Source: Shewanella sp. TC10
Lineage (GTDB): Bacteria > Pseudomonadota > Gammaproteobacteria > Enterobacterales > Shewanellaceae
NCBI RefSeq assembly: GCF_009663145.1
Contig: NZ_VKHR01000012.1
Location: 1 to 64,000 of the forward strand
Length of the DNA stretch: 64,000 nucleotides
Direction of reading: 5' to 3'
Shown here: positions 31,867 to 47,832 of the stretch, one piece after another
Layout: every line of letters begins with the position of its first letter
Numbering within the stretch: position 1 is the first letter of the stretch
The notes under the pieces: generated by a model
Database searches by the model: none
Seen by the model: only the letters and a program-made list of their open reading frames with translations
What the model was told of the DNA's origin: nothing
Position numbers and translations under genes: made by a program

Positions 31867-34236
31867 ATGAGAACATATAAAAAGTCGATACTTGCTGCAG
31901 CGTTGATGGCTGCGATCGGGTTGACGGGTTGTAGTGATGGGGACGATGGGAAAGATGGTCAGGATGGTGCGCCAGGAACACCTGGTGAACCGGGTACATC
32001 TGTCGGTAATGTTGTTGAAACCGTAAATTCAGCAGCAGACTTTACGTTAACCCTAACACCAGAAGATATCGTTGTTGTTGGTACTGAAGATTTCTCGGTT
32101 AAATTTACTGTCACTGGAAAAAACAGTGCTGGTAAAGAATTACCATTTTCTGGTCTAGAAAAAGTTGCGCTTTACGTGATGAATGAAGCGCCAAACACTA
32201 CCGATACTGGTGGCCCATATTTTTGGCAAAGTCACGGACTTGAAAATGACTTTAGCTATAGCATGTATTGTAGTTTAACCGGAACGACAACATCTTGGGG
32301 TAGTGAGGTCGACGCATGTACATTGGTCGAAGATACTGAAAACCCTGGCACTTATACTGGTACTTGGGAGCATGAAGGTAATGCTCCTATCGTTCTGGCT
32401 GAGGGTGATGTTAATCGCTTACATCGCGTTATGGTTAGAACTTACGATATTACTGACGATGAAGGTAATGCTATATCAGATAAACTGCTGACTAAGCCAT
32501 TAGATTATATTCCAGCAACAGGCGAGCTTGCAGTATCCAATAAAGATTCAGTATCAAACGCAGCGTGTATTCAATGTCATAGCGCACTAGATGGATTTGC
32601 TGAAGATGATATGCGTATTGGTAATATTGATGCTCACCATAATTACCAAAAAGTAGAAAATTGTGTCGCTTGTCATAACCCAGCTTATGCAGCTGATCAA
32701 AACGATCCAGAGAAAGGTTATAACCCTAACTGGAATGCCATGATCCATACCATTCATGCAGGTCATCACTTAGATTTAGTTGGTGAAGCAAAAGAAATGT
32801 TTAGCGAGGTGGGTTTCCCTGCTGAGTTGAATGAATGTACGGTTTGTCATGATAATGGCACGCAGTGGAATGACAATATTTACGCTGAAGCTTGCGTGTC
32901 TTGCCATACCGATGTTGATTTCGAAACAGGTGATAATCACCGCGGTATCGTGCCAGAAAGTGATGCATCGTGTTCGGGTTGTCATGGCGCTGGTAGTTTA
33001 AGCCCAATGGAAGCTCACGCAGTGGGTGCTCGTGGAACGTTAAAAGACGGTGTCGTATTTGATGTTATGTCTGCTGAAGTTGCAGCTGATCAATTAACTG
33101 TTGTTGTCGACGTAACGATCAATGGCGAAACACCTGCAGATGGTACCGTTTTAGCCGATTATTTAGCTGCTGAAGGTTATGCTCATGCAATTATGATGGG
33201 TACTTTAGATGAAAATGGTGATTATGTTCGTGGTTTAAGCCTTGATACTAGTTCAGGTTTATTTGTTACTACTGGCGGCAAACTCACTTTATCTCAAGCT
33301 ATTGATGCCAACTCTCTTGACGGAAAAACACTTTCTGTAAGTTCAGAGTTTAGTATGTGTGGTGACATTGAATCAGGTATGGTCATTGATAGAACGACTT
33401 TAGGCACAGATGAAGAGTGTGAAATCGCTATTCCAGCGAATATCGTGACTAAGTTCTTCATGTTTGACGATGTTGCAGCTGTCGGTGTTGAAACTGAAGA
33501 AAATTTACGTTTTGTGCCTTCTTCACTTGAAAACTTCACCATGCCAACACAAGCGATGAATGATCGCACCAGTGCTGATGAAGCTAAGTGTAATGCATGT
33601 CATGAGAATTTATCGCACATTAAAGCTCCTCGCCATGGTGTGACTGACTTTACTCAGTGTGCAGATTGTCACAATAATAATTACCCTGGTTCATACCATG
33701 CCGATGTTTATAAACAAGCTGGTACTGACGAAGATGGTGAACCTACATTTGAGCTAGTTGAAGGTTTAGAGTACTACAACCGTGATTTAGCAACCGTTGC
33801 TCACCGTTTCCATAGTGGTATGTTCGCAGGTAGCACTGGCGGCGGTATCTACTTAGGTGAAGATGGTGAAACATGGGTTAATTACCCTGCATCTAAAACT
33901 GACTGTCAGGCTTGTCATAAAGATGTCGATTCAAACGGTGACGACATGACCTTCTTTGCTGGTGACGGTGAATTAACATCTGGTCGCACAGCAATCGCTG
34001 AAAGTAACGATTACGGAGCTACTGTTAATTACATTTCTCCTGTAACAGAAGCTTGTCGTACTTGTCATGCTCACTCAGGTGCAGCAGCATTAGCTCACTT
34101 TAAGAGCAATGGCGCGACAGTTTATGAAGATGGCGTTAAATCTGCCGCTGATGTACCTGTAGAGTCTTGTTCTACTTGTCACGCTGAAGGTAAAACTTAC
34201 GGTGTTGATACAATGCATAGCGGTACAGGTCACTAA
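31867..34236 (+). CDS. OmcA/MtrC-family decaheme c-type cytochrome lipoprotein
   Basis: Predicted outer-membrane, cell-surface electron-transfer protein of 789 residues. The signal sequence ends in lipobox LTGC (Cys22), followed by seven Gly-X-Y collagen-like triplets. Ten CXXCH heme sites fall in two groups of five: residues 234-373 (domain II) and 575-772 (domain IV), separated by beta domain III, the MtrC/OmcA layout. Domain III keeps a cysteine pair (SMCGD to DEECEI, CX19C) analogous to the MtrC disulfide, and domain I has another (CX15C). No MtrA/MtrB partner is adjacent. S. oneidensis also has an orphan family member, SO_1659; orthology is an inference. Confidence 0.93.
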   Translation: MRTYKKSILAAALMAAIGLTGCSDGDDGKDGQDGAPGTPGEPGTSVGNVVETVNSAADFTLTLTPEDIVVVGTEDFSVKFTVTGKNSAGKELPFSGLEKVALYVMNEAPNTTDTGGPYFWQSHGLENDFSYSMYCSLTGTTTSWGSEVDACTLVEDTENPGTYTGTWEHEGNAPIVLAEGDVNRLHRVMVRTYDITDDEGNAISDKLLTKPLDYIPATGELAVSNKDSVSNAACIQCHSALDGFAEDDMRIGNIDAHHNYQKVENCVACHNPAYAADQNDPEKGYNPNWNAMIHTIHAGHHLDLVGEAKEMFSEVGFPAELNECTVCHDNGTQWNDNIYAEACVSCHTDVDFETGDNHRGIVPESDASCSGCHGAGSLSPMEAHAVGARGTLKDGVVFDVMSAEVAADQLTVVVDVTINGETPADGTVLADYLAAEGYAHAIMMGTLDENGDYVRGLSLDTSSGLFVTTGGKLTLSQAIDANSLDGKTLSVSSEFSMCGDIESGMVIDRTTLGTDEECEIAIPANIVTKFFMFDDVAAVGVETEENLRFVPSSLENFTMPTQAMNDRTSADEAKCNACHENLSHIKAPRHGVTDFTQCADCHNNNYPGSYHADVYKQAGTDEDGEPTFELVEGLEYYNRDLATVAHRFHSGMFAGSTGGGIYLGEDGETWVNYPASKTDCQACHKDVDSNGDDMTFFAGDGELTSGRTAIAESNDYGATVNYISPVTEACRTCHAHSGAAALAHFKSNGATVYEDGVKSAADVPVESCSTCHAEGKTYGVDTMHSGTGH

Positions 34237-37408: not shown

Positions 37409-38635
37409 TTAAAAGTACCAGCGGCTAGCGAGTTGCCATTGCTGCTCGATTAAGTCGCGGGGCAAATCTTGCTCTGCTCGAGCATTACGAGTGGAATCAA
37501 TTCGATTATATTCTGCTTGTATAAACCACTTTTGAGCTAAACGGTATTGATATGACAAGGTCATTGCATTTCCTTGCTCATTATTATCATCATCGAAGGT
37601 GAGATCATTGTCTGTTACATCGAAATCTTCAAGGCGTAAACTGACGCGATGTTTGTCCCAGCGCCGGCTTAATAATATGAAAGCGGATTGATAGTCGTTG
37701 TTGACCACATCAACGGCATCTGGTGACTGCATTAATGTACTGCCATAAATATATTGGCTGATTAAATCGATGCTATAGGGTAAGCGCCATTTAATGCCGG
37801 CATGAGTAAAGCGTGTATGCCAAGCGTACTGGCCGTTTTTGACGATGCGTGTGTTGGCATTATTATCGTAATACCCTAAAGAAATCTCTCCGCTGCCTTT
37901 TATGCGCCAGCTCCCGTGTAACTGATAGCCAAAGCGATCGTCTAACTCAATAAAAGGATCGGATTCTTTCGCTTGTTCATCAAGGCTGCCCCCATCCAGG
38001 CTTGGCATATTACTTAAAGGCAGGGACTCTTGTAGTAATGTTTGTCGTGAGCTGATTGTCCAGCCATGCCAAGAAAGCATTGCACCAGCAGTATCATTAC
38101 TCTGGAACAGGGCTGCTGAAACAGAGAAATCATTTTTTGAAGAGTGAAATTTACCAAGGCGTTCTAAGGTGACTTCTGCGCCAAGGTGGCGAAACTCTTC
38201 ACCTAACCAACTGTTTATAGTAGAATTAGTGAGAGTGTAGGGGGATGACCAAGCTGTGGCGACATTTTCTAATGAAATGTCAGGATACATTAGACCGAAT
38301 CTGGTTTTTAATCGTAAACCATTATCCCAAGGTAAACTTCGATAATTTAGAAAAGCTTCAGTAATGCCAACGCCATTTTGGATGCCATCGACATAACCAT
38401 TAGCGGTGACATGTGCTGAGAGAGCATTTTCCCAATCGACTTTATATGTCATTCCCATTTGAGATAGTGACACTTGGCTACCATCATCAAATCGAAACTT
38501 TCCTAGACCACCGTCGACATAGGAATGTGTTCCTTGGGTGTGGCTTGCTCTTAAGTCAATAATGCCTGATATATGGTGATCTGCAGCTATAGCGCTATAG
38601 CTGCTTAAACATAATATCAAAATCCATTTTTTCAT
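37409..38635 (-). CDS. outer-membrane beta-barrel protein, porin-like
   Basis: A 408-residue protein with signal peptide MKKWILILCLSSYSAIAA, many amphipathic strands (ISGIIDLRAS, SLSQMGMTYKV, AHVTANGYVD, GEISLGYYDNN, WFIQAEYNRID) and a C-terminal Phe (ASRWYF) as expected of a BAM substrate. Probably a 14-18 stranded barrel; no specific family recognised. It is the third gene of an operon with a cupredoxin-like protein and a GGDEF-EAL protein, 36 bases downstream of the latter. Confidence 0.75.
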   Translation of the reverse strand: MKKWILILCLSSYSAIAADHHISGIIDLRASHTQGTHSYVDGGLGKFRFDDGSQVSLSQMGMTYKVDWENALSAHVTANGYVDGIQNGVGITEAFLNYRSLPWDNGLRLKTRFGLMYPDISLENVATAWSSPYTLTNSTINSWLGEEFRHLGAEVTLERLGKFHSSKNDFSVSAALFQSNDTAGAMLSWHGWTISSRQTLLQESLPLSNMPSLDGGSLDEQAKESDPFIELDDRFGYQLHGSWRIKGSGEISLGYYDNNANTRIVKNGQYAWHTRFTHAGIKWRLPYSIDLISQYIYGSTLMQSPDAVDVVNNDYQSAFILLSRRWDKHRVSLRLEDFDVTDNDLTFDDDNNEQGNAMTLSYQYRLAQKWFIQAEYNRIDSTRNARAEQDLPRDLIEQQWQLASRWYF

Positions 38636-38671
38636 CCGTGAACCTTATTATTTAAATTATTACGGATTTGC

Positions 38672-41035
38672 CTAGCTGTAACTCGACTGAATTAACCACT
38701 GAGTCAACCGTGTGGCATCAACTGGTTTTGAAAGATAAAACCCCTGTCCCATTTCGCAGCCACGTTCAGTTAACCATTTTAGTGAACCTTCGTCTTCAAT
38801 CCCTTCAGCAACGACTTTGAGCCCTAAATTATGGGCAAGCTGCAGCGTTGAGTTAACAATGATTTGATCGTCTTCGTTGATCATCAGGTTTTGCACAAAA
38901 GACTTATCAATTTTGAGTTCATCAACAGGTAACTGTTTAAGCTGCGCTAATGAAGAATAGCCAGTGCCATAATCATCAATAGACAGTTTTAGGCCGTGTT
39001 GTTTAAGCTCTGTTAACTGTTTAATGGCATGTTCAGGATCGGCAACAACCGCATCTTCAGTGATTTCCAGTGTGAGTGCCTCAATCGGTACTCGTTTATC
39101 TTTTATGGTCTGTAATACGTAATCACAGAACTGATTGTCTTTTAAATTTTCAGGTGAAATATTCACTGCGATAGCAAGCTCAATACCTTGCTGTTGCCAT
39201 CTGAGGTATTGATCCAATGCTTCATTAATTACCCACTGTGTTAAGGCGTTCATTTGACCCATTTGTTCTGCGATGGATATAAAGCTATCTGGGGGGATCA
39301 TGCCTCTGACTGGGTGTTGCCAGCGAACTAATGCTTCAACATGAGTGACTTTATTGAGTGTTAAGTCGAGTTTAGGTTGATAAAACAATACGAGTTCATC
39401 TTGTTCGATAGCAGGTTTTAAATCATTGACTAATTGAAGTCTATCTAAAGTATTAACATCTATTTGCTGGTGGTAAATTTGTAAATGTAAGCGATTTTTC
39501 TTGGCATGTTGAAGCGCAGTATCTGCTTGACGTAATAAGGTTTCAAGATCGTTAGGATAATGAACAAAGCTGATACCTATGGTGGTTTGTAAGTGTAAAG
39601 AGATGTCTTGGTAGCAGAACTCTGTTTCAATGCTTCGCTGGATATTTTTAATTAACGCTGTCAGTTTTTTTTGTTCAGTATGTTTGATTGCCAATACAAA
39701 TTCATCACCACTTAAACGGCACACTAAATCAATTTCATCAAAACTTGCTAAACGTCGGCCAATTTCTTGAATGACAACATCACCAACGATATGACCTAAA
39801 GTACCGTTTATTTCTGTCATTCTGCGAATGTTGATTAAACAGATAGCGATAGGCGTCTTATCTTCAAACCAATTTGATGTGACTCGTATAAGTTCGTTTT
39901 TGTTGCCAAGACTGGTAAGAGGGTCATGATAGGCCTGAAAAGTGATTTTGTTTTCTCGGCTTAATATAGCCTGTTGCATCGCGGTAATTTCTTCTGCTAG
40001 CTCGTGCATCTCTGCGCTGCTACCCACCTCGACTTTAGAATTGTAATTCCCCTTGGCAATGAACCTTGCTTGTTTAATTAATAGTGTCAGGGGTTTAGTC
40101 ACGCCTCTAGCGATAATAAATGCGACGAATAAAGAAATCGGTAACATCAGCAGGATGAGCAATACCTGCTGAAACCAATGTTTTTGTGCTGACTCTAATG
40201 CATCACTGCGACTTAAAAACATGAAAGCATGTAGCTGGCGGTGATCGTTTTCTTTTAGACTGACTTCGCCTAAATCAGATTGCCATAAAATGTAATCATC
40301 ATTGGGACGATTTTGCTTAATAAAACTGGATATGACTTGGTTGTCTGCTTTAGAAAAGCTTGAACTTGATAGGCTGATTAACTGATTCGTTTGCTGCTCA
40401 GCAGTGAGTACGAAGCCGGTGTTTAGACCGGTTTGTTGTGAAAGTGACTGAGTTAACTCATCACCGATGATATAACCAAATCCCACCCAACCTATAATGT
40501 TTGATGCTCCACTCGTTAATGGTGAGAAGCGAAGCTGATAAACATGGTTTTCGAGAGGGTATAAAGGGCTGATAGCTTCAAATTCAGTAGCCAATGACAT
40601 ACGGAATGCTTCGCCTTGCTCAGGGCCAACCTTTACTTTGCCCTGATTTGGCCCATCTGGGGTCGTGAGTAATTGACCGATGACTTTACCTTCAATATCA
40701 ACGGCAATGGCAAGATCTGCATTGATGCGTTTTCGATGATTATTCAATGCAACAAGAAAACTACGGCTATCATCGTCAATAAAGACATCTTTGAGCCCAA
40801 AATCTTTTGCTGCAGTTTCCGCAAAAGCAGATAAGTAGTAATTTCGATTATCGTATTCAGACTTAAAAACGAGCTCAGCCACAGAAAGTTGGTTGGCAAG
40901 TTGATGCTGCTCTAAGCGTTTATTAGTGTAATAAGTAATGGCGAACGAGATCGCTTGCACTGCAATTAAAAGCACCATAAAAAAAGCAAAAATGCGCGTT
41001 TGAATACTGTTGAACGATTTAAGCGTTTTTAGCAT
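38672..41035 (-). CDS. membrane GGDEF-EAL cyclic-di-GMP protein
   Basis: A 787-residue signalling protein. TM1 (about 12-33), a periplasmic sensor of about 250 residues, TM2 (about 288-310, LLILLMLPISLFVAFIIA), HAMP, GGDEF domain (about 360-520) and EAL domain (about 530-785). The cyclase motif is SGDEF (RLSGDEFVLAI), a variant of GGDEF, so cyclase activity is uncertain. The EAL domain looks complete: EALVRW, NISPENL, EITEDAV, DDYGTGYSSL, KIDKSFV and EGIEDEGSL, so phosphodiesterase activity is likely. The start overlaps the cupredoxin stop (TAATG), which suggests its sensor reads the state of that protein or of copper/redox. Confidence 0.92.
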   Translation of the reverse strand: MLKTLKSFNSIQTRIFAFFMVLLIAVQAISFAITYYTNKRLEQHQLANQLSVAELVFKSEYDNRNYYLSAFAETAAKDFGLKDVFIDDDSRSFLVALNNHRKRINADLAIAVDIEGKVIGQLLTTPDGPNQGKVKVGPEQGEAFRMSLATEFEAISPLYPLENHVYQLRFSPLTSGASNIIGWVGFGYIIGDELTQSLSQQTGLNTGFVLTAEQQTNQLISLSSSSFSKADNQVISSFIKQNRPNDDYILWQSDLGEVSLKENDHRQLHAFMFLSRSDALESAQKHWFQQVLLILLMLPISLFVAFIIARGVTKPLTLLIKQARFIAKGNYNSKVEVGSSAEMHELAEEITAMQQAILSRENKITFQAYHDPLTSLGNKNELIRVTSNWFEDKTPIAICLINIRRMTEINGTLGHIVGDVVIQEIGRRLASFDEIDLVCRLSGDEFVLAIKHTEQKKLTALIKNIQRSIETEFCYQDISLHLQTTIGISFVHYPNDLETLLRQADTALQHAKKNRLHLQIYHQQIDVNTLDRLQLVNDLKPAIEQDELVLFYQPKLDLTLNKVTHVEALVRWQHPVRGMIPPDSFISIAEQMGQMNALTQWVINEALDQYLRWQQQGIELAIAVNISPENLKDNQFCDYVLQTIKDKRVPIEALTLEITEDAVVADPEHAIKQLTELKQHGLKLSIDDYGTGYSSLAQLKQLPVDELKIDKSFVQNLMINEDDQIIVNSTLQLAHNLGLKVVAEGIEDEGSLKWLTERGCEMGQGFYLSKPVDATRLTQWLIQSSYS

Positions 41036-41721
41036 TAGTAGCCTTCCAGAAAGTCAAAGTCATCTAAACTCTGTTGACTAGGAATATCATCCATAGACGC
41101 ATTTATTTGTATTGTTAGGGAGTCAGATAATGGGGTACTAACTTTTTGGCTATATTTGTTATCTTCAATTTGTAATTGAGGGTGCCAGATGTCGAGCTGA
41201 TATTCATTATCAGGCACAGAGTCAAACTCGACTTGACCTAGATTATTGGTGACAGCATAAAATGGTGTGTCGACCACTAATACATGACCACTCATCCAGT
41301 CATGAATATTACAACCCATCGATATATGACCTGCTTGATCGAACACCATATCTTTTTGGGCATTATCTTTACGTAACTTAAACGAGAATCGCTTTGGCCC
41401 TGAAGCAGAATAAATATGGTGGGTGATATCATCATCGTTAATAAATTTTAGTTGGTAACCTTTTTGGATAACGGTGATGTAGGGAGTAAATTGCTTATTT
41501 TCTTGGTGGACTTCAATGGGAGGCTGAGTGGAACCTTTTGGCTGGTTGATACTTTGTTCTGGTGAAGGGACTAAGGCTGTTAAGGAGACAACCATATTCG
41601 GCATAGGCTCAGAATTTGAATTTACAATTGTGAATTGATGACTTAACGCAGACAAGCTAAAGCCTGCACTTAAAAATAGCCCGGTAACAATGAAACTTTT
41701 AACCGCTTTATGTCTGTTCAC
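41035..41721 (-). CDS. periplasmic cupredoxin-like (blue copper) protein
   Basis: A 228-residue exported protein. The signal segment FIVTGLFLSAGFSLSALS leads to a cupredoxin domain with copper ligands in INDDDITHHIYS (His) and MGCNIHDWMSGH, where Cys, His and Met follow the CxxHxxM spacing of type 1 sites. A second beta domain (VTNNLGQVEFDSVPDNEYQLDIW broken by a turn) and an Asp-rich tail follow. The annotation methylamine utilization protein is often given to such sequences. The start is the GTG at 41721, five bases after GAGG, since the in-frame GTG at 41739 has no ribosome binding site. First gene of a three-gene operon. Confidence 0.8.
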   Translation of the reverse strand: MNRHKAVKSFIVTGLFLSAGFSLSALSHQFTIVNSNSEPMPNMVVSLTALVPSPEQSINQPKGSTQPPIEVHQENKQFTPYITVIQKGYQLKFINDDDITHHIYSASGPKRFSFKLRKDNAQKDMVFDQAGHISMGCNIHDWMSGHVLVVDTPFYAVTNNLGQVEFDSVPDNEYQLDIWHPQLQIEDNKYSQKVSTPLSDSLTIQINASMDDIPSQQSLDDFDFLEGY

Positions 41722-41732
41722 ACATACCTCTT

Positions 41733-41758
41733 TTATCACATTAGTTTATCACATTAGT
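41733..41758. repeat. perfect 13-bp tandem duplication in the cupredoxin leader
   Basis: TTATCACATTAGT occurs twice head to tail, 12-37 bases before the chosen GTG start; the minus-strand unit ACTAATGTGATAA contains TGTGA. It may be a slip duplication or a repeated operator half-site. Confidence 0.7.
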
Positions 41759-41883: not shown

Positions 41884-41915
41884 AAAAAAAAGCAAAACCG
41901 AAGTTTTGCTTTTTT
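41884..41915 (-). terminator. intrinsic terminator of the SEC-C protein gene
   Basis: On the minus strand AAAAAAGCAAAAC, a TTCG tetraloop, GTTTTGCTTTTTT and further T residues form a textbook terminator, insulating the cupredoxin operon from upstream transcription. Confidence 0.92.
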
Positions 41916-42650: not shown

Positions 42651-43067
42651 TTATTGGTAGTTAACTTCAATCGTGTAATTCAATTGCTGCTCTCCTGCCA
42701 ACTGGTCACTTAGTACATCGACCTTTCCGCCCACATTAATTAAGGTTGTTTGCTGCGTTAAAGCAAAAGATTGTTGCTGACTGCCATTAGGCAAGATAGG
42801 CGTAAATTTGATATTGGCATTATTGGTTTGATAAACAGTAACGTTAATCACTGAATGGCCATCTCCATTAATGGCAAATTGGCCCAATTGGTTATCAGAA
42901 CTAATACAGCCAGTCCCTTGTCGTTGGAATTGATCAAGTTGACATTCGACACTGACTTGATTGGAAATTAAGCCTAAATTGAGGGTTTGAGTTTGCTCAA
43001 TGGCAACAGGTGATACTAAAGTGAAATGTGCTTGAGCAATAGCGCTAGCTAACATAAATAATGACAC
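42651..43067 (-). CDS. DUF4402-like fimbrial subunit, probably minor or tip
   Basis: A 138-residue secreted protein resembling the subunit encoded at 47365-47832: KFTPILPNG, INVGGKVDVLSDQLAGEQQLNYTIEVNY align with the second half of that protein, and a CX11C pair (VECQ to GTGC) matches its CX13C. The start is GTG with AAGGAT six bases ahead; an in-frame TAG directly upstream rules out extension. The signal peptide is short and lacks basic residues. It is the last gene of the chaperone-usher cluster, 88 bases after the usher. Confidence 0.75.
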   Translation of the reverse strand: MSLFMLASAIAQAHFTLVSPVAIEQTQTLNLGLISNQVSVECQLDQFQRQGTGCISSDNQLGQFAINGDGHSVINVTVYQTNNANIKFTPILPNGSQQQSFALTQQTTLINVGGKVDVLSDQLAGEQQLNYTIEVNYQ

Positions 43068-43155
43068 GCGCTATCCTTAATTAAACTAGTCACAAAGTAA
43101 TGACTAGATTGTAGTTGCTGATGGATTAACGTGCAGCTAAATTAGCCATTAAAGA

Positions 43156-46100
43156 TTAACGAGAGAGTGTTTGTGTGGGAAAGGTCACATATTCGCCAGG
43201 GGCAAGTATTATCGGGTCTGATTGTATTTGTTTGTTGATTTCAATTTGATACTCGCCAGGCACTAACTGCTCAAAGATAAACACGCCATCATATTCCACT
43301 CGAGCATGGTATTTGACGTCATTTTTATCAATCAGTGTGATTGGAACGCCTTTCGCTGCTACTCCATTGTCATAGAAAACTTCGCCATCTAATTCCGCAG
43401 TAAATAGAACAGGAAAAAGAATTTCAGCTACGTTGCCTGGGTGGGCTTGGATAAGCAGGATGCTATTTAGCGGTAATAAAAAGGGATCTGGTAAAGAGCG
43501 TTCATTAAGCACTAACTTATGTGGCCTGGTTGTTTGAATGTGGGTAATGAGCAGTTGGCCGTTTTCATCTGTTTCGTCATCTGAACGTGTATGTCCAGAG
43601 AAACGTAAACCTTCCATAGGCAATTCATTCTCATCAAATAAGCCGTTATTATTATCATCCTGAAAGGCGATGATTTTAACGCTTCCTGTATTCAGATGGC
43701 TGACGCGATCAAGTAACCAAGTGTTATCAGGTGCGATTAAAAGTGCCGAGCTACTCCACTTAAATTGAGCAAACCAGTCACCTTCAGAGTCATTTTCAAC
43801 AGAAAACCTCAAGGTACTTGTGTCTAAAAAGTACGACAAAGAGTTCTTCACTGTGACTTCTGCACTAGCCATAGGTTGATAGCGCACTTCAAATTGATAG
43901 TTACTATTGTCGGTAAATGAAGTCCTGACATTGGATACTAACTGGGTTAATTCTGTATCAGGTAAAAGCGCAAGATCAGCGTAAGTTCGTAAATACCAAT
44001 CGTCAATTCGACCTGAAAGCGCTAGCCTATTTGCCCACACTTCGTTGTTGGCGATATTTTGCCAACTTAATTCATTACTTAATGATAAGTGCTGAAATTG
44101 CCCAGCTACGGTAGCTGCAATAAACAGACTATCGCTACCTAGATTTTGGTCTTGCCAGCGACCACTGAGCGCCCAGCTCATGTTGGTGTGCTCCAAGTTA
44201 CCACTTAAATTAACGCTGGCGAGTTGTTTTAATTGATTGTCTTGATTATCCCAAGATTCAAAATCATTGTATTTTGCCCACTCTGTTTGCCAATCAATTA
44301 ACTCGTTACTGCCTTGGGCTATCAGGTTGGCGGCTGTACCCGTTTCATTACCCGTGAGGTTAAGTTGCCATACACTATTATCCGTCAAAAGATTTAGGGT
44401 GACAGTCGGATTAAAAAGCCATTTATCTTTTGATATTTGTTGCTCAATGATGGCCACTCCAGCTGAAAAATTATCTGTCACCGCCCAATTTGCACTCGCA
44501 TAAACTTGCTTTAAATCATCTTGTTCTCGCTGCATTGCCCCGAAATTCATGCCAAAGCTATTGGCTTTCATTTGCGAAGGGTCAAGTAACTTACTGAAAG
44601 ACTCTGTGCGGGTTTCGCCATTGGGACCGAAAAAACGAAGTTGATATTGGTTTAAGCCAATATAGTAGGGGACTTGCTCAAATCGGTATTGGCCGTTGTC
44701 CGATACTCGTTGAACACCAATTAAACCACCATTTCGATAAAGTTCTACATCCCAACCTGGTTCTAACTCGCCATCAACGACGAGGTATCGAATATCATCA
44801 GTAAAAGCATCGCCCGCATTAATAACAACGCCCTCACCAGTACTTGAACTAGAAACAAGTGCTAAGTTATGAGAGTCGATACTGCCAAGCCGATAATAGT
44901 TAACCCAAGTATCTGCCATTTGTTTTTCAATATAAGCATTCAAGCTTTCTCCATAGTCTGACCATGAATATCCTGCGTAGGCGCTATGACCTAAGAGATG
45001 AGTGCGAGCTTGGATAAAGCCATCAAAACTGGGATCTTGTGTGTCTGTTTGTTTACGTTGGGATACACCTAAATCGGCATGCAGCGCTAAATCACCTAAG
45101 TTGGCGTATTGGGTTTTAATGTGACGTTGGTTCTTAGGAGAGTTGGCTTTTTTCTGATCGTTGAACTGTTGATAGCGTTTTTGTCGAGCGAGTAATTGGC
45201 TTAAAGGAACATGCGTATTTTCGATTATTTCGAGCATTTGTCTTGCATGATCAAATTGAATATCTAATCCGGTCATCTGTTTGACCACTGACATATCAAG
45301 ATATAAATCCCAATCATCAAAGTAAACTTGCGTTGCGCTGTGTTCGCAATCGCTATTTTGTGCTGTAAAGCGCATGAGGCCTTGGTTAATCTCCACTGGA
45401 TTATCTGTTGATAGATACCAGCCAGTTAAACTGAGCGGATACATTTCTGTTTGCAATGGCAGCATTAAGATATCTGCTAAAAATTGCATGGGCAGATATA
45501 CAATTCCATCGTTTTGATAAATGAACATTTCATCACTTAATCGCTCAGTGCCATAGTTAAATTGACTGACAAGAAATTGCTCTTCATTTGCAGCTGATGA
45601 AGTATAGGTTCGATTAATTAATCCTGAGCAAGTTAATTCACTTACTTTAGGGCTGGCCACATCGGTAGTGGAAAGTTTAGAAATAGGCTGCTTTGGCAGA
45701 ACTTGATTTGAACTAGATTGCTGTGACGGAAGGGAAATAGGGGCGCTTACTGTATCTACGGCCGTATTTTTTTGAGCAAAATTGGATGTGTGGGGCGTCT
45801 TGGCGTTTTGTGTTTGAACTTCTGCTGAAATCAGATCTTTATTGTTTATATTACTAATCGTATCTTGCGGTATTCCATTGCTAATCGTATCTCGCGGTAT
45901 TTCATTGTTAATTAGAGACTTAGTGGCCACTTGTTCAGAGGCTATTTGATCTACACTATCTGTATTTTCAGTGCTTTCCCTAATTGCACTATTACTAAAT
46001 TCGCTGTGAGTAAATGCATTATTACTAAATTCACTTTCACTAAATACATTATCACTGATTGAAGTATCGATTTTCCCATGTTCACTTGCCACTATAGGTG

Positions 46101-46323
46101 GGTTTGGAGTGACTTCATCTATCGTTTCATGCTCATGAAGTGTTTTGGACTTTTTTATTTGTTGCGTTGGAGGAGGTAGCTCAAGTGATGATAAAAAAGT
46201 GGGTTGATCTGACTTCCAGGGCTTTGATGATTCAAGCCCTGGATTGACTAATTCGATATAAAGCAAAAGTAAGCTAATGGCTAAAGCATATTTTGCTAAT
46301 CGATTTATCTTCCGTTTGATCAC
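43156..46323 (-). CDS. fimbrial usher-like outer-membrane protein with anchored N-terminal extension
   Basis: A 1055-residue usher-type assembly protein. The N-terminus is basic with a hydrophobic stretch (YALAISLLLLYIELVNPG) lacking an obvious cleavage site, then about 200 residues rich in Ser, Asn, Thr and Gln with internal near-repeats (SEFSN, IPRDTISN/IPQDTISN). From about 235 the usher begins: NYGTERLSDEMFIY, YLPMQFLADILMLP, barrel strands, then ELEPGWDVELYRNGGLIGVQ (plug/middle domain) and FFGPNGETRTES. C-terminal beta domains follow, including an EF-hand-like DDNNNGLFDENE loop. Start is GTG with no good Shine-Dalgarno. It fits the alternative (CS1-like) usher group rather than the FimD group. 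Confidence 0.82.
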   Translation of the reverse strand: MIKRKINRLAKYALAISLLLLYIELVNPGLESSKPWKSDQPTFLSSLELPPPTQQIKKSKTLHEHETIDEVTPNPPIVASEHGKIDTSISDNVFSESEFSNNAFTHSEFSNSAIRESTENTDSVDQIASEQVATKSLINNEIPRDTISNGIPQDTISNINNKDLISAEVQTQNAKTPHTSNFAQKNTAVDTVSAPISLPSQQSSSNQVLPKQPISKLSTTDVASPKVSELTCSGLINRTYTSSAANEEQFLVSQFNYGTERLSDEMFIYQNDGIVYLPMQFLADILMLPLQTEMYPLSLTGWYLSTDNPVEINQGLMRFTAQNSDCEHSATQVYFDDWDLYLDMSVVKQMTGLDIQFDHARQMLEIIENTHVPLSQLLARQKRYQQFNDQKKANSPKNQRHIKTQYANLGDLALHADLGVSQRKQTDTQDPSFDGFIQARTHLLGHSAYAGYSWSDYGESLNAYIEKQMADTWVNYYRLGSIDSHNLALVSSSSTGEGVVINAGDAFTDDIRYLVVDGELEPGWDVELYRNGGLIGVQRVSDNGQYRFEQVPYYIGLNQYQLRFFGPNGETRTESFSKLLDPSQMKANSFGMNFGAMQREQDDLKQVYASANWAVTDNFSAGVAIIEQQISKDKWLFNPTVTLNLLTDNSVWQLNLTGNETGTAANLIAQGSNELIDWQTEWAKYNDFESWDNQDNQLKQLASVNLSGNLEHTNMSWALSGRWQDQNLGSDSLFIAATVAGQFQHLSLSNELSWQNIANNEVWANRLALSGRIDDWYLRTYADLALLPDTELTQLVSNVRTSFTDNSNYQFEVRYQPMASAEVTVKNSLSYFLDTSTLRFSVENDSEGDWFAQFKWSSSALLIAPDNTWLLDRVSHLNTGSVKIIAFQDDNNNGLFDENELPMEGLRFSGHTRSDDETDENGQLLITHIQTTRPHKLVLNERSLPDPFLLPLNSILLIQAHPGNVAEILFPVLFTAELDGEVFYDNGVAAKGVPITLIDKNDVKYHARVEYDGVFIFEQLVPGEYQIEINKQIQSDPIILAPGEYVTFPTQTLSR

Positions 46324-46373
46324 GGTAGGAATAATCAGTTAAGAGTTATTATCAGTGAATGTCCTTTTAAACC

Positions 46374-47165
46374 CTAAAAATTAACGGTTTGCTCAACCGT
46401 TTTTGCTTCAAATAAACCATCATTTTCGATGTATTTTACCAATAGTTTAGTATTGGGTTTGAGCGGTTCATTCAATGTAATTGCAAAAGAGCGGCGTTCA
46501 TTTTCAGTATAAATAGACGCATTTTTCAAACTACCCAATAGTTCGTTAGTATCAGCATCAAACACCTCTACATCACCATAACTACTTCTTTGTCCTTCAC
46601 GCGCTATTTCGACAATTAACTGCTGTTTACCGTCTTGAGTATTGAGCCCGTTAGATTCGATAGTGAGTTCAGCTGTTAACTGTCCTACACGCATGATCAC
46701 AGGGATGGCTATACGTAAGTAGGCAGTAACCGATAGTTTCATAGTGTCAGATGGCGTATTTGCATCTGTTTCACTGGTAGGAGCAAGTGGAATTTGATGG
46801 AACACAATGTAGCTTCGATATTCCCCTGCTTGAATATCTTTTGGTGGTCTTACAGCAAGACGGACTCGGGCACCTTGCTCGGGTGACAAACTGACTCTTC
46901 TTGGTGAGTAGCGAGTAAAAGGGGTCAAGGAGGTAGGGGTAACGTCAGATTCAAGCAGTTCAAACTCACCAGAATCCAATAAGCGTTTATCTTCTAGGTA
47001 GATCTCATAGCGTGATGTTTCACTGCTTTTGTTAACCAATGAAAACACGGCACTCTTGTCGCGTTTATTATCGAGCTCAACGCGTGTTGGGGTAACTAAT
47101 AGATTTGCATACACACTTGGAACTAAAGTGAGAGCCAAAGTGGTAAAAAGAAATAATTTTTTCAT
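46374..47165 (-). CDS. periplasmic fimbrial chaperone
   Basis: A 263-residue PapD-like protein: signal peptide MKKLFLFTTLALTLVPSVYA, then an Ig-like domain NLLVTPTRVELDNKRDKSAVFSLVNKS (split by a turn), the conserved YSPRRVSLSPEQGARVRL block and YRSYIVFHQIPL, the strands and basic residues used for subunit binding. A second Ig-like domain follows. Sequence type fits the chaperones of alternative chaperone-usher systems. It lies between the major subunit and usher genes, 50 bases before the latter. Confidence 0.87.
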   Translation of the reverse strand: MKKLFLFTTLALTLVPSVYANLLVTPTRVELDNKRDKSAVFSLVNKSSETSRYEIYLEDKRLLDSGEFELLESDVTPTSLTPFTRYSPRRVSLSPEQGARVRLAVRPPKDIQAGEYRSYIVFHQIPLAPTSETDANTPSDTMKLSVTAYLRIAIPVIMRVGQLTAELTIESNGLNTQDGKQQLIVEIAREGQRSSYGDVEVFDADTNELLGSLKNASIYTENERRSFAITLNEPLKPNTKLLVKYIENDGLFEAKTVEQTVNF

Positions 47166-47364
47166 GGCAATGCCCAGCTAAATTTATATGCAACGTGTTG
47201 CAATTATTATAATTTTTTATTGTTAGCTTACTTCGAGCTTGTGTTGTAAATGAGTTGAGGTATAGGAATTAAATCCCGTAAAACGACTACGGGATTTAGC
47301 TTACGTTTTCTCAAATAGATTAATTATCTACTTGTAAGTTAAAAATATTTGCACCTAATAAATA

Positions 47365-47832
47365 TTAGTAAGTTACTGAAAGCGTATAACTTAGTGCGTG
47401 AGTACCTGGAGCTGCACTTGCTGCAACAATATCCAATGTACCGCCAACGTCAACAGCAAGGGTGTTACTTGCCACAGTACCAGTTGCACTAGCAAGTGTT
47501 GGTGTAAAAGTGACACCAGATACTGAAGTATCTGCAGCAGAAAGTGATAAGTTAACCGTGCCATCTGCAGCAGTTACTGTGAATAAACCGGTATTAGCAG
47601 TATTACCGCCAGCAACACATGCAGCACCAGAAGTGGCATCTGAATAATCTAAAGCACATTGTCCATCTGCTGCAATAGATACGTCGCCGAATTCCATTTG
47701 CTCAGTTTCACTAACAGTGATCGGGTAAACCAAGTTGAAGTTTGCTGTGCCTGTTGCATCTTCTGCACCGGCTTGAGTAGAAAGAAGTAATGTTGAAGCT
47801 ATAACTGTAGATAATAGTATTTTTTTAGTCAT
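47365..47832 (-). CDS. DUF4402-like fimbrial major subunit
   Basis: A 155-residue protein with signal peptide (MTKKILLSTVIASTLLLS, cleavage near AGA-EDA). The mature beta-sandwich is rich in Ala, Thr, Ser and Val: ITVSETEQMEFGDVSI, a CX13C pair, GLFTVTAADGTVNLSLS, LAVDVGGTLDIV and the ending ALSYTLSVTY, typical of DUF4402 subunits. It is first in the chaperone-usher cluster, with the longest intergenic region upstream, so is probably the most expressed component. Confidence 0.82.
   Translation of the reverse strand: MTKKILLSTVIASTLLLSTQAGAEDATGTANFNLVYPITVSETEQMEFGDVSIAADGQCALDYSDATSGAACVAGGNTANTGLFTVTAADGTVNLSLSAADTSVSGVTFTPTLASATGTVASNTLAVDVGGTLDIVAASAAPGTHALSYTLSVTY

Follow-up and report, generated by a model that had tools for sequence, protein, structure and literature searches.

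A cupredoxin gene and the gene of an adjoining dCache_3 receptor form a pair that recurs across many families of the Pseudomonadota, and the pair persists across receptors with four types of output domain. It was studied from a locus of Shewanella sp. TC10, where a third gene, for an outer-membrane-type beta-barrel, completes a trio. The cupredoxin may be a dedicated periplasmic co-receptor of the receptor encoded beside it, reporting redox or copper state, a reading that we regard as evenly balanced between right and wrong.

Layout of the three-gene locus

The window (the whole stretch of DNA analysed, 64,000 nucleotides of contig NZ_VKHR01000012.1) carries the trio on its minus strand in the order cupredoxin (41721-41035), receptor (41035-38672) and barrel (38635-37409). 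The stop codon of the cupredoxin gene overlaps the receptor ATG in the sequence TAATG (41037-41033), and a 36-base gap (38671-38636) separates the receptor stop codon from the ATG of the barrel gene. The features are as follows:

37409..38635, minus strand: outer-membrane-type beta-barrel, 408 aa, C-terminal Phe (weak family matches, below cut-off)
38672..41035, minus strand: receptor, dCache_3-HAMP-GGDEF-EAL, 787 aa (Pfam; relatives)
38723..39427, minus strand: EAL domain, residues 537-771 (Pfam, above cut-off; catalytic residues)
39494..39934, minus strand: GGDEF domain (SGDEF), residues 368-514 (Pfam, above cut-off)
39965..40114, minus strand: HAMP domain, residues 308-357 (Pfam, above cut-off)
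40166..40930, minus strand: periplasmic dCache_3-type sensor, residues ~36-290 (Pfam matches of relatives; double-Cache fold)
41035..41721, minus strand: exported two-domain cupredoxin, 228 aa, with a cupredoxin part and a carboxypeptidase-regulatory-like part (model pLDDT 89.9)
41269..41529, minus strand: cupredoxin fold, residues 65-151 (structure comparison of the model)
41293..41421, minus strand: copper-ligand residues His101 (41421-41419), Cys137 (41313-41311), His140 (41304-41302) and Met143 (41295-41293) (conservation)
41886..41915, no strand assigned: terminator-like palindrome upstream of the trio (not above chance for the region)

An earlier note, made from the letters alone, had described three minus-strand genes with the TAATG overlap and the short gap, and the coordinates bear this out. 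Its picture of the products also holds: an exported protein with a CxxHxxM pattern (the motif reads MGCNIHDWMSGH and lies behind a signal-peptide-like N-terminus), a two-TM receptor with a large periplasmic sensor, SGDEF and an intact EAL domain, on which sequence and model agree, and an outer-membrane-type barrel that does end in Phe. None of the NCBIfam equivalogs reached its cut-off for the cupredoxin, receptor or barrel of the window.

The cupredoxin start codon is a GTG at 41721 with AGAGG upstream, and an alternative in-frame GTG at 41739 is possible. Just 5' of this start there is a 13-base unit with an exact tandem copy (41733-41758), possibly a regulator site or a recent duplication. 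Terminator-like stems are no more frequent in the region than in shuffled sequence (3 observed, 3.9 expected). Farther out, positions 42651-47832 encode a DUF4402 protein, a 1055-aa usher-like protein, a chaperone-like protein and another small exported protein, and look like a chaperone-usher-type surface operon, with a family match near cut-off for the DUF4402 protein only. On the other side, at 31867-34236, a multiheme outer-membrane cytochrome with domains like those of MtrC/MtrF is encoded on its own, with the gene of a membrane protein downstream.

The cupredoxin

The window cupredoxin matched Pfam Cupredoxin_1 below cut-off (E 3.7e-4). Among 77 relatives, Cupredoxin_1 was matched by 32 and CarboxypepD_reg by 43 at E <= 0.01. 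A PDB sequence search with the cupredoxin profile returned no relative at E 0.01, and the fold was recognized by structure comparison: residues 65-151 of the model resemble plastocyanin (2plt, Z 12.7, rmsd 1.6 over 83 residues), amicyanin (4p5r, Z 12.1, rmsd 2.0 over 85) and, in the same Z range of 12-13, the copper domain of NirK. The model is a confident one, and predicts a plastocyanin/amicyanin-type fold.

Four residues of the predicted type-1 copper site, His101, Cys137, His140 and Met143, are invariant in the closest set found by a contig scan, a set partly chosen by the pattern MGCNIHDW. Because MGCNIHDW was among the search patterns, the count was repeated on homologues found by profile, which were not so chosen; over all those scoring at least 110 bits, from both sources, His101 is conserved in 176/177, Cys137 in 177/177, His140 in 177/177 and Met143 in 176/177. 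The earlier note had named copper ligands in a structure model as a point to check, and the result is a confident cupredoxin model with conserved ligand residues. Conservation of these residues suggests that the protein binds copper. The ligand loop of amicyanin is also CxxHxxM, so that fold and loop are both shared; the window protein differs in being part of a two-domain exported protein with a receptor gene adjoining, whereas amicyanin and plastocyanin adjoin a dehydrogenase or a photosystem.

The genome of Shewanella sp. TC10 has one further, distant cupredoxin relative (L083). In its neighborhood (contig C32, 3203-7127) this cupredoxin is flanked by a CCP/MauG peroxidase and a cytochrome P460, a GGDEF protein lies next to them, and the gene content predicts another copper-heme-c-di-GMP neighborhood in the same genome.

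The receptor

The periplasmic part of the modeled receptor is bracketed by two long helices and has a double-Cache fold (pLDDT 83.2). The window sequence matches Pfam dCache_3 below cut-off (E 0.0018, 18.4-19.6 of 25.7 bits), and 55/60 receptor relatives match that family at E <= 0.01. In structure comparisons, residues 58-190 resemble CitA (Z 15.7, 119 residues), the whole sensor resembles LuxQ of V. cholerae (3c30, Z 14.7, rmsd 4.1 over 203 residues), and the CHASE4 domains of IsmP and PA2072 score Z 12.5-12.8. Among the PDB sequence matches listed for the sensor part, all are to chemoreceptors and HAMP proteins and are confined to its C-terminal stretch, from residue 271 onward. A search of the genome with the sensor profile gave no second match besides the window receptor. 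The corresponding Pfam dCache_3 search was too insensitive, and missed the window receptor itself.

The residues that we take to be catalytic in EAL domains are invariant in 77/77 receptor family members, and the EAL domain is predicted to be a c-di-GMP phosphodiesterase. An exact GGDEF motif occurs in 6/77 members. The window receptor has SGDEF, with Asn at what is presumably the metal-binding Asp position of the GGDEF family, and Asn also occupies this position in the commonest GGDEF-domain patterns of the receptor family. Judged by these residues, the GGDEF domain of the window receptor is probably not a cyclase. An active diguanylate cyclase was considered as the output of this receptor, and finds no support given SGDEF and the Asn.

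The beta-barrel

The window barrel matches Pfam OMP_b-brl below cut-off (E 1.3e-5), and among 71 barrel relatives there are weak, below-cut-off matches to OMP_b-brl, BBP2 and Porin_4 (22, 10 and 8 relatives for three barrel families). The sole match in a PDB sequence search was an unrelated aldolase (E 0.71). The family is conserved, with many invariant residues, and Phe is the last residue in 70 of 109 ORFs, a count that includes redundant rows.

Conservation of the trio and of the cupredoxin-receptor pair

A cupredoxin scan with one genome per species gave 99 loci, of which the best 80 were taken; counts leave out L037, leaving 79 loci. L037 is a Shewanella contig in which frameshifts break all three genes of the trio, and may reflect an assembly error. 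Within this best part of the scan, the receptor gene follows the cupredoxin gene on the same strand in 79/79 loci, and the barrel gene, whole or partial, is present in order and on the same strand in 74/79. Two of the five loci lacking the barrel are true absences (L026, L081), and the other three (L031, L049, L075) are at contig ends. Hosts include Shewanella, Colwellia, Thalassotalea, Psychromonas, Pseudoalteromonas and Neptuniibacter.

Wider sampling used the cupredoxin profile, which at E 1e-10 found matches in 32/274 genomes of the class and 65/295 of the order, and at E 1e-15 in 55/398 of the phylum; the three genome samples overlap. The 219 cupredoxin ORFs were reduced to 206 by de-duplication at 95% identity, and 177 of these score at least 110 bits, one of them being a gene fragment from the frameshifted locus L037. 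Neighborhoods left out were those of G410, G276, G408, G326, G380, G458, G391, G300, G768, G464 and G508, the second match in G376, contig 12 of G474 and contig 454 of G288. A dCache_3 receptor gene lies within 1.2 kb on the same strand of 163 of the 177, as called mostly with our own sensor profile, with five that it missed confirmed by Pfam. By score, the receptor adjoins 79/79 cupredoxins at 250 bits or more and 84/98 of the remainder. The gap between the two genes is at most 60 bases in 156/164 cases, a count that includes L186, which was afterwards dropped. The closest set is 33-77% identical to the window protein.

The barrel is an optional partner. It is found with 76 of the 79 closest homologues (those of 250 bits or more) and with 10/85 in the next group, namely homologues of 110-250 bits with a signaling gene within 1.2 kb. 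In eight loci there is a cupredoxin-barrel pair and no adjacent receptor; in that branch the link to the barrel is therefore as old or as strong. Six of the 177 fit neither arrangement (L083, L134, L146, L186, L193 and L195): in L134 the barrel is on the opposite strand, in L186 the nearby GGDEF protein has no dCache_3 input, and L195 has DUF3034 and globin genes and no adjoining receptor. The genomes of the eight receptor-less loci and of L134 all have a receptor of the family elsewhere (9/9). In five it is beside another cupredoxin (G543, G454, G443, G515, G288), in G323 it is with DUF3034 and globin, and in G302, G485 and G475 it is alone.

That the genes are chance neighbors in a compact genome has next to no probability. 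Nothing was found in its favor, overlapping genes alone prove little, and it is refuted by recurrence across many families of the phylum together with exchange of the output domain.

Exchange of the output domain

Among homologues of at least 110 bits, the receptor beside the cupredoxin is mostly a GGDEF-EAL protein. In ten loci the output is instead a class III nucleotide cyclase, five of them checked with Pfam (L085, L086, L088, L127, L171) and five assigned by similarity, and single loci have a histidine kinase (L092) or a Ser/Thr kinase (L098). In most of the 29 lower-scoring homologues no adjoining receptor was recognized by the profiles used; five others have a Ser/Thr kinase (L101, L112, L116, L168, L202), four of them Pfam-checked, the dCache_1 match of L112 being below cut-off and L116 lying outside the Pfam check, and L120 has a GGDEF-EAL protein beside the cupredoxin. 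Since outputs vary among loci, the recurring unit is the cupredoxin with its Cache receptor, and these two recur in the output-exchange loci, where barrel, DUF3034 and globin are present in some and missing in others.

On trees of 88 rows with many weak branches, output changes number six for the cupredoxin and three for the sensor. The rows comprise 18 of the 79 closest homologues together with others, after three rows from two frameshifted loci were dropped. With so many weak branches, each output type may have had one origin.

The co-occurrence search that the earlier note had recommended thus found the three families adjacent in many genomes, and its link between cupredoxin and receptor is now better supported, because the pair survives a swap of the output domain. 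A partnership kept across exchange of the enzyme suggests that the cupredoxin is the sensing partner of the receptor.

The sister form and redox neighbors

In the group of 85 defined above, DUF3034 (53/85) and a bacterial globin (52/85) are found within 4.5 kb, and the same 4.5-kb search found neither beside the 79 closest homologues. The commonest order of this sister form is cupredoxin, GGDEF-EAL, DUF3034, globin (37 loci), and the four-gene cluster occurs in about 50 loci, for example L087, L093, L095 and L097, where the GGDEF-EAL protein has a dCache_3 sensor. The sister globin has one His and two Cys that do not vary over 54 ORFs (a count with redundant rows), of which 26 have a lipobox-like motif. 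The invariant His may be a heme ligand. A DUF3034 search of the genome of Shewanella sp. TC10 gave no match, and its control was likewise without signal.

Two distant cupredoxins have a CCP/MauG peroxidase and a hybrid histidine kinase as neighbors (L203, 1221-5829, and L205, 5263-9175), with Pfam behind the L203 assignment only. Others (L099, L105, L109, L115) are beside long HEAT-repeat-like, radical-SAM-like and oxidoreductase-like ORFs, as read from ORF starts only.

Tests of the association

Pairwise distances of cupredoxins and sensors correlate with r 0.78, a value that includes shared species history, and 500 row permutations gave at most 0.11. In a coupling analysis of 149 pairs, a number too small for a trustworthy result, the tenth-best inter-protein score was higher than in all 12 within-group shuffles, which ignore relatedness; pairs within each protein were poorly recovered. 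In the reciprocal direction, the sensor profile at E 1e-6 gave 28 matches in 26/274 genomes of the class. Matches above 100 bits lie beside a cupredoxin or one gene from it in 16/18 cases, and the other two (G171; contig 35 of G117) have no cupredoxin nearby. This search is only partly independent, because the profile was trained on cupredoxin-adjacent sensors and 12 of the 16 were included. Ten matches are weaker: three adjoin a cupredoxin homologue (L112, L116, L120), L103 is about 2 kb from one, L227 has a 21-bit cupredoxin-like ORF alongside, and five have no recognizable cupredoxin beside them.

Proposed mechanism and alternatives

If the cupredoxin is a co-receptor, whether or how it engages the sensor would depend on its type-1 copper site, which may be empty or loaded and may carry Cu(I) or Cu(II). 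Engagement would move the HAMP linker and alter the EAL domain, which would hydrolyse c-di-GMP, and could raise or lower its activity. The degenerate GGDEF domain would act as a spacer with a regulatory role, and the signal would be supplied or relayed by the barrel as outer-membrane partner. In our view the signal is more likely to be of a redox type (electron supply, oxygen or NO) than to be copper supply, given that the sister clusters carry a globin, deeper relatives adjoin CCP/MauG peroxidases, and the relative in the same genome adjoins cytochrome P460.

Gene adjacency fits co-expression equally well, and the main rival is a receptor that binds its own small ligand or metal and is merely co-expressed with a copper-protein pathway, the cupredoxin and barrel being effectors or metabolic partners that make no contact with it. 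We consider this unlikely, though less so than the other alternatives. Judged by structure titles, the dCache domains of known structure mostly bind their ligands directly; IsmP is reported to sense iron and PA14_37690 to bind copper directly through its CHASE4 domain (PMC10904736; PMC13277305); and the eight cupredoxin-barrel loci do without an adjacent receptor. Against this, the cupredoxin is the most constant neighbor of the receptor, and ten cyclase and nine GGDEF-EAL loci (110-250 bits) keep the pair although no barrel of this family, DUF3034 or globin was found in them. This separation of the pair from the barrel is not clean, since L085 and L090 have other barrel-like ORFs.

Copper supply could itself be the signal, with loaded and empty cupredoxin read differently and the barrel admitting copper. 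The conserved type-1 ligand residues, the copper binding reported for a CHASE4 GGDEF-EAL protein (PMC13277305) and the barrel as outer-membrane partner in 76/79 of the closest loci are all consistent with this. Its probability is nevertheless low, as the globin, CCP/MauG and cytochrome P460 neighbors of relatives point to redox chemistry, and an unsystematic look at loci recognized no copper-export or copper-chaperone gene beside the trio.

A relay from the surface is improbable to a greater degree. Here a change of state in the barrel would be bridged to the receptor by the cupredoxin, as in YfiBNR-like relays; YfiBNR is a proposed outer-membrane-periplasm-inner-membrane relay. The invariant residues of the barrel and the cupredoxin-barrel pairs lacking an adjacent receptor favor such a role, but most loci in the group of 85 have no barrel or one from a different family.

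Relation to known systems

The co-receptor reading has precedents. LuxP-LuxQ likewise combines a double-Cache receptor with a separate periplasmic protein, and LuxQ is the closest full-length fold to the sensor. LuxP belongs to the sugar-binding type of protein and LuxQ is a hybrid kinase, whereas in the trio the partner has a copper-protein fold and the output is an EAL domain. The titles of PDB entries 1zhh and 2hj9 describe a complex of LuxQ with periplasmic LuxP. In Vibrio cholerae, the inner-membrane GGDEF-EAL receptor MbaA reads the periplasmic protein NspS and sets c-di-GMP (PMC8967002). As in the trio, the periplasmic partner is encoded with a GGDEF-EAL receptor; however, NspS is a solute-binding protein for polyamines and not a cupredoxin, MbaA has both activities while the GGDEF domain of the trio looks degenerate, and the input type of the trio is coupled to further kinds of output as well. 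A metal-responsive periplasmic sensor of related fold on a GGDEF-EAL protein is shared with IsmP of P. aeruginosa PAO1 and its homologue in PA14, PA14_37690, in which the metal is bound by the CHASE4 domain itself without a cupredoxin (PMC10904736; PMC13277305). The word cupredoxin does not occur in the text of PMC13277305, and PMC7930318 concerns an unrelated PAS-MCP sensor.

Membrane receptors that read a periplasmic protein are therefore known, as is direct metal input to a GGDEF-EAL protein. Searches of a library of open-licence papers found no description of a cupredoxin-coupled receptor, in agreement with the earlier note, which had held the combination not to be a standard described pathway. 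Tentatively, and at somewhat less than an even chance, we suggest a widespread, undescribed receptor class of the Pseudomonadota that uses a separate type-1 copper protein as its input. The cupredoxin-dCache pair would drive c-di-GMP phosphodiesterases, nucleotide cyclases and histidine or Ser/Thr kinases; the sister form would add DUF3034 and a globin with an invariant His and two Cys; and together they would read the periplasmic redox or gas (oxygen, NO) state.

Many GGDEF-EAL receptors are without a known input. If the cupredoxin is the input subunit, it would give this large receptor group, with its four kinds of output, a signal chemistry that can be tested, and biofilm, cyclic-nucleotide and kinase signaling would come under direct control of the redox or copper state of the periplasm.
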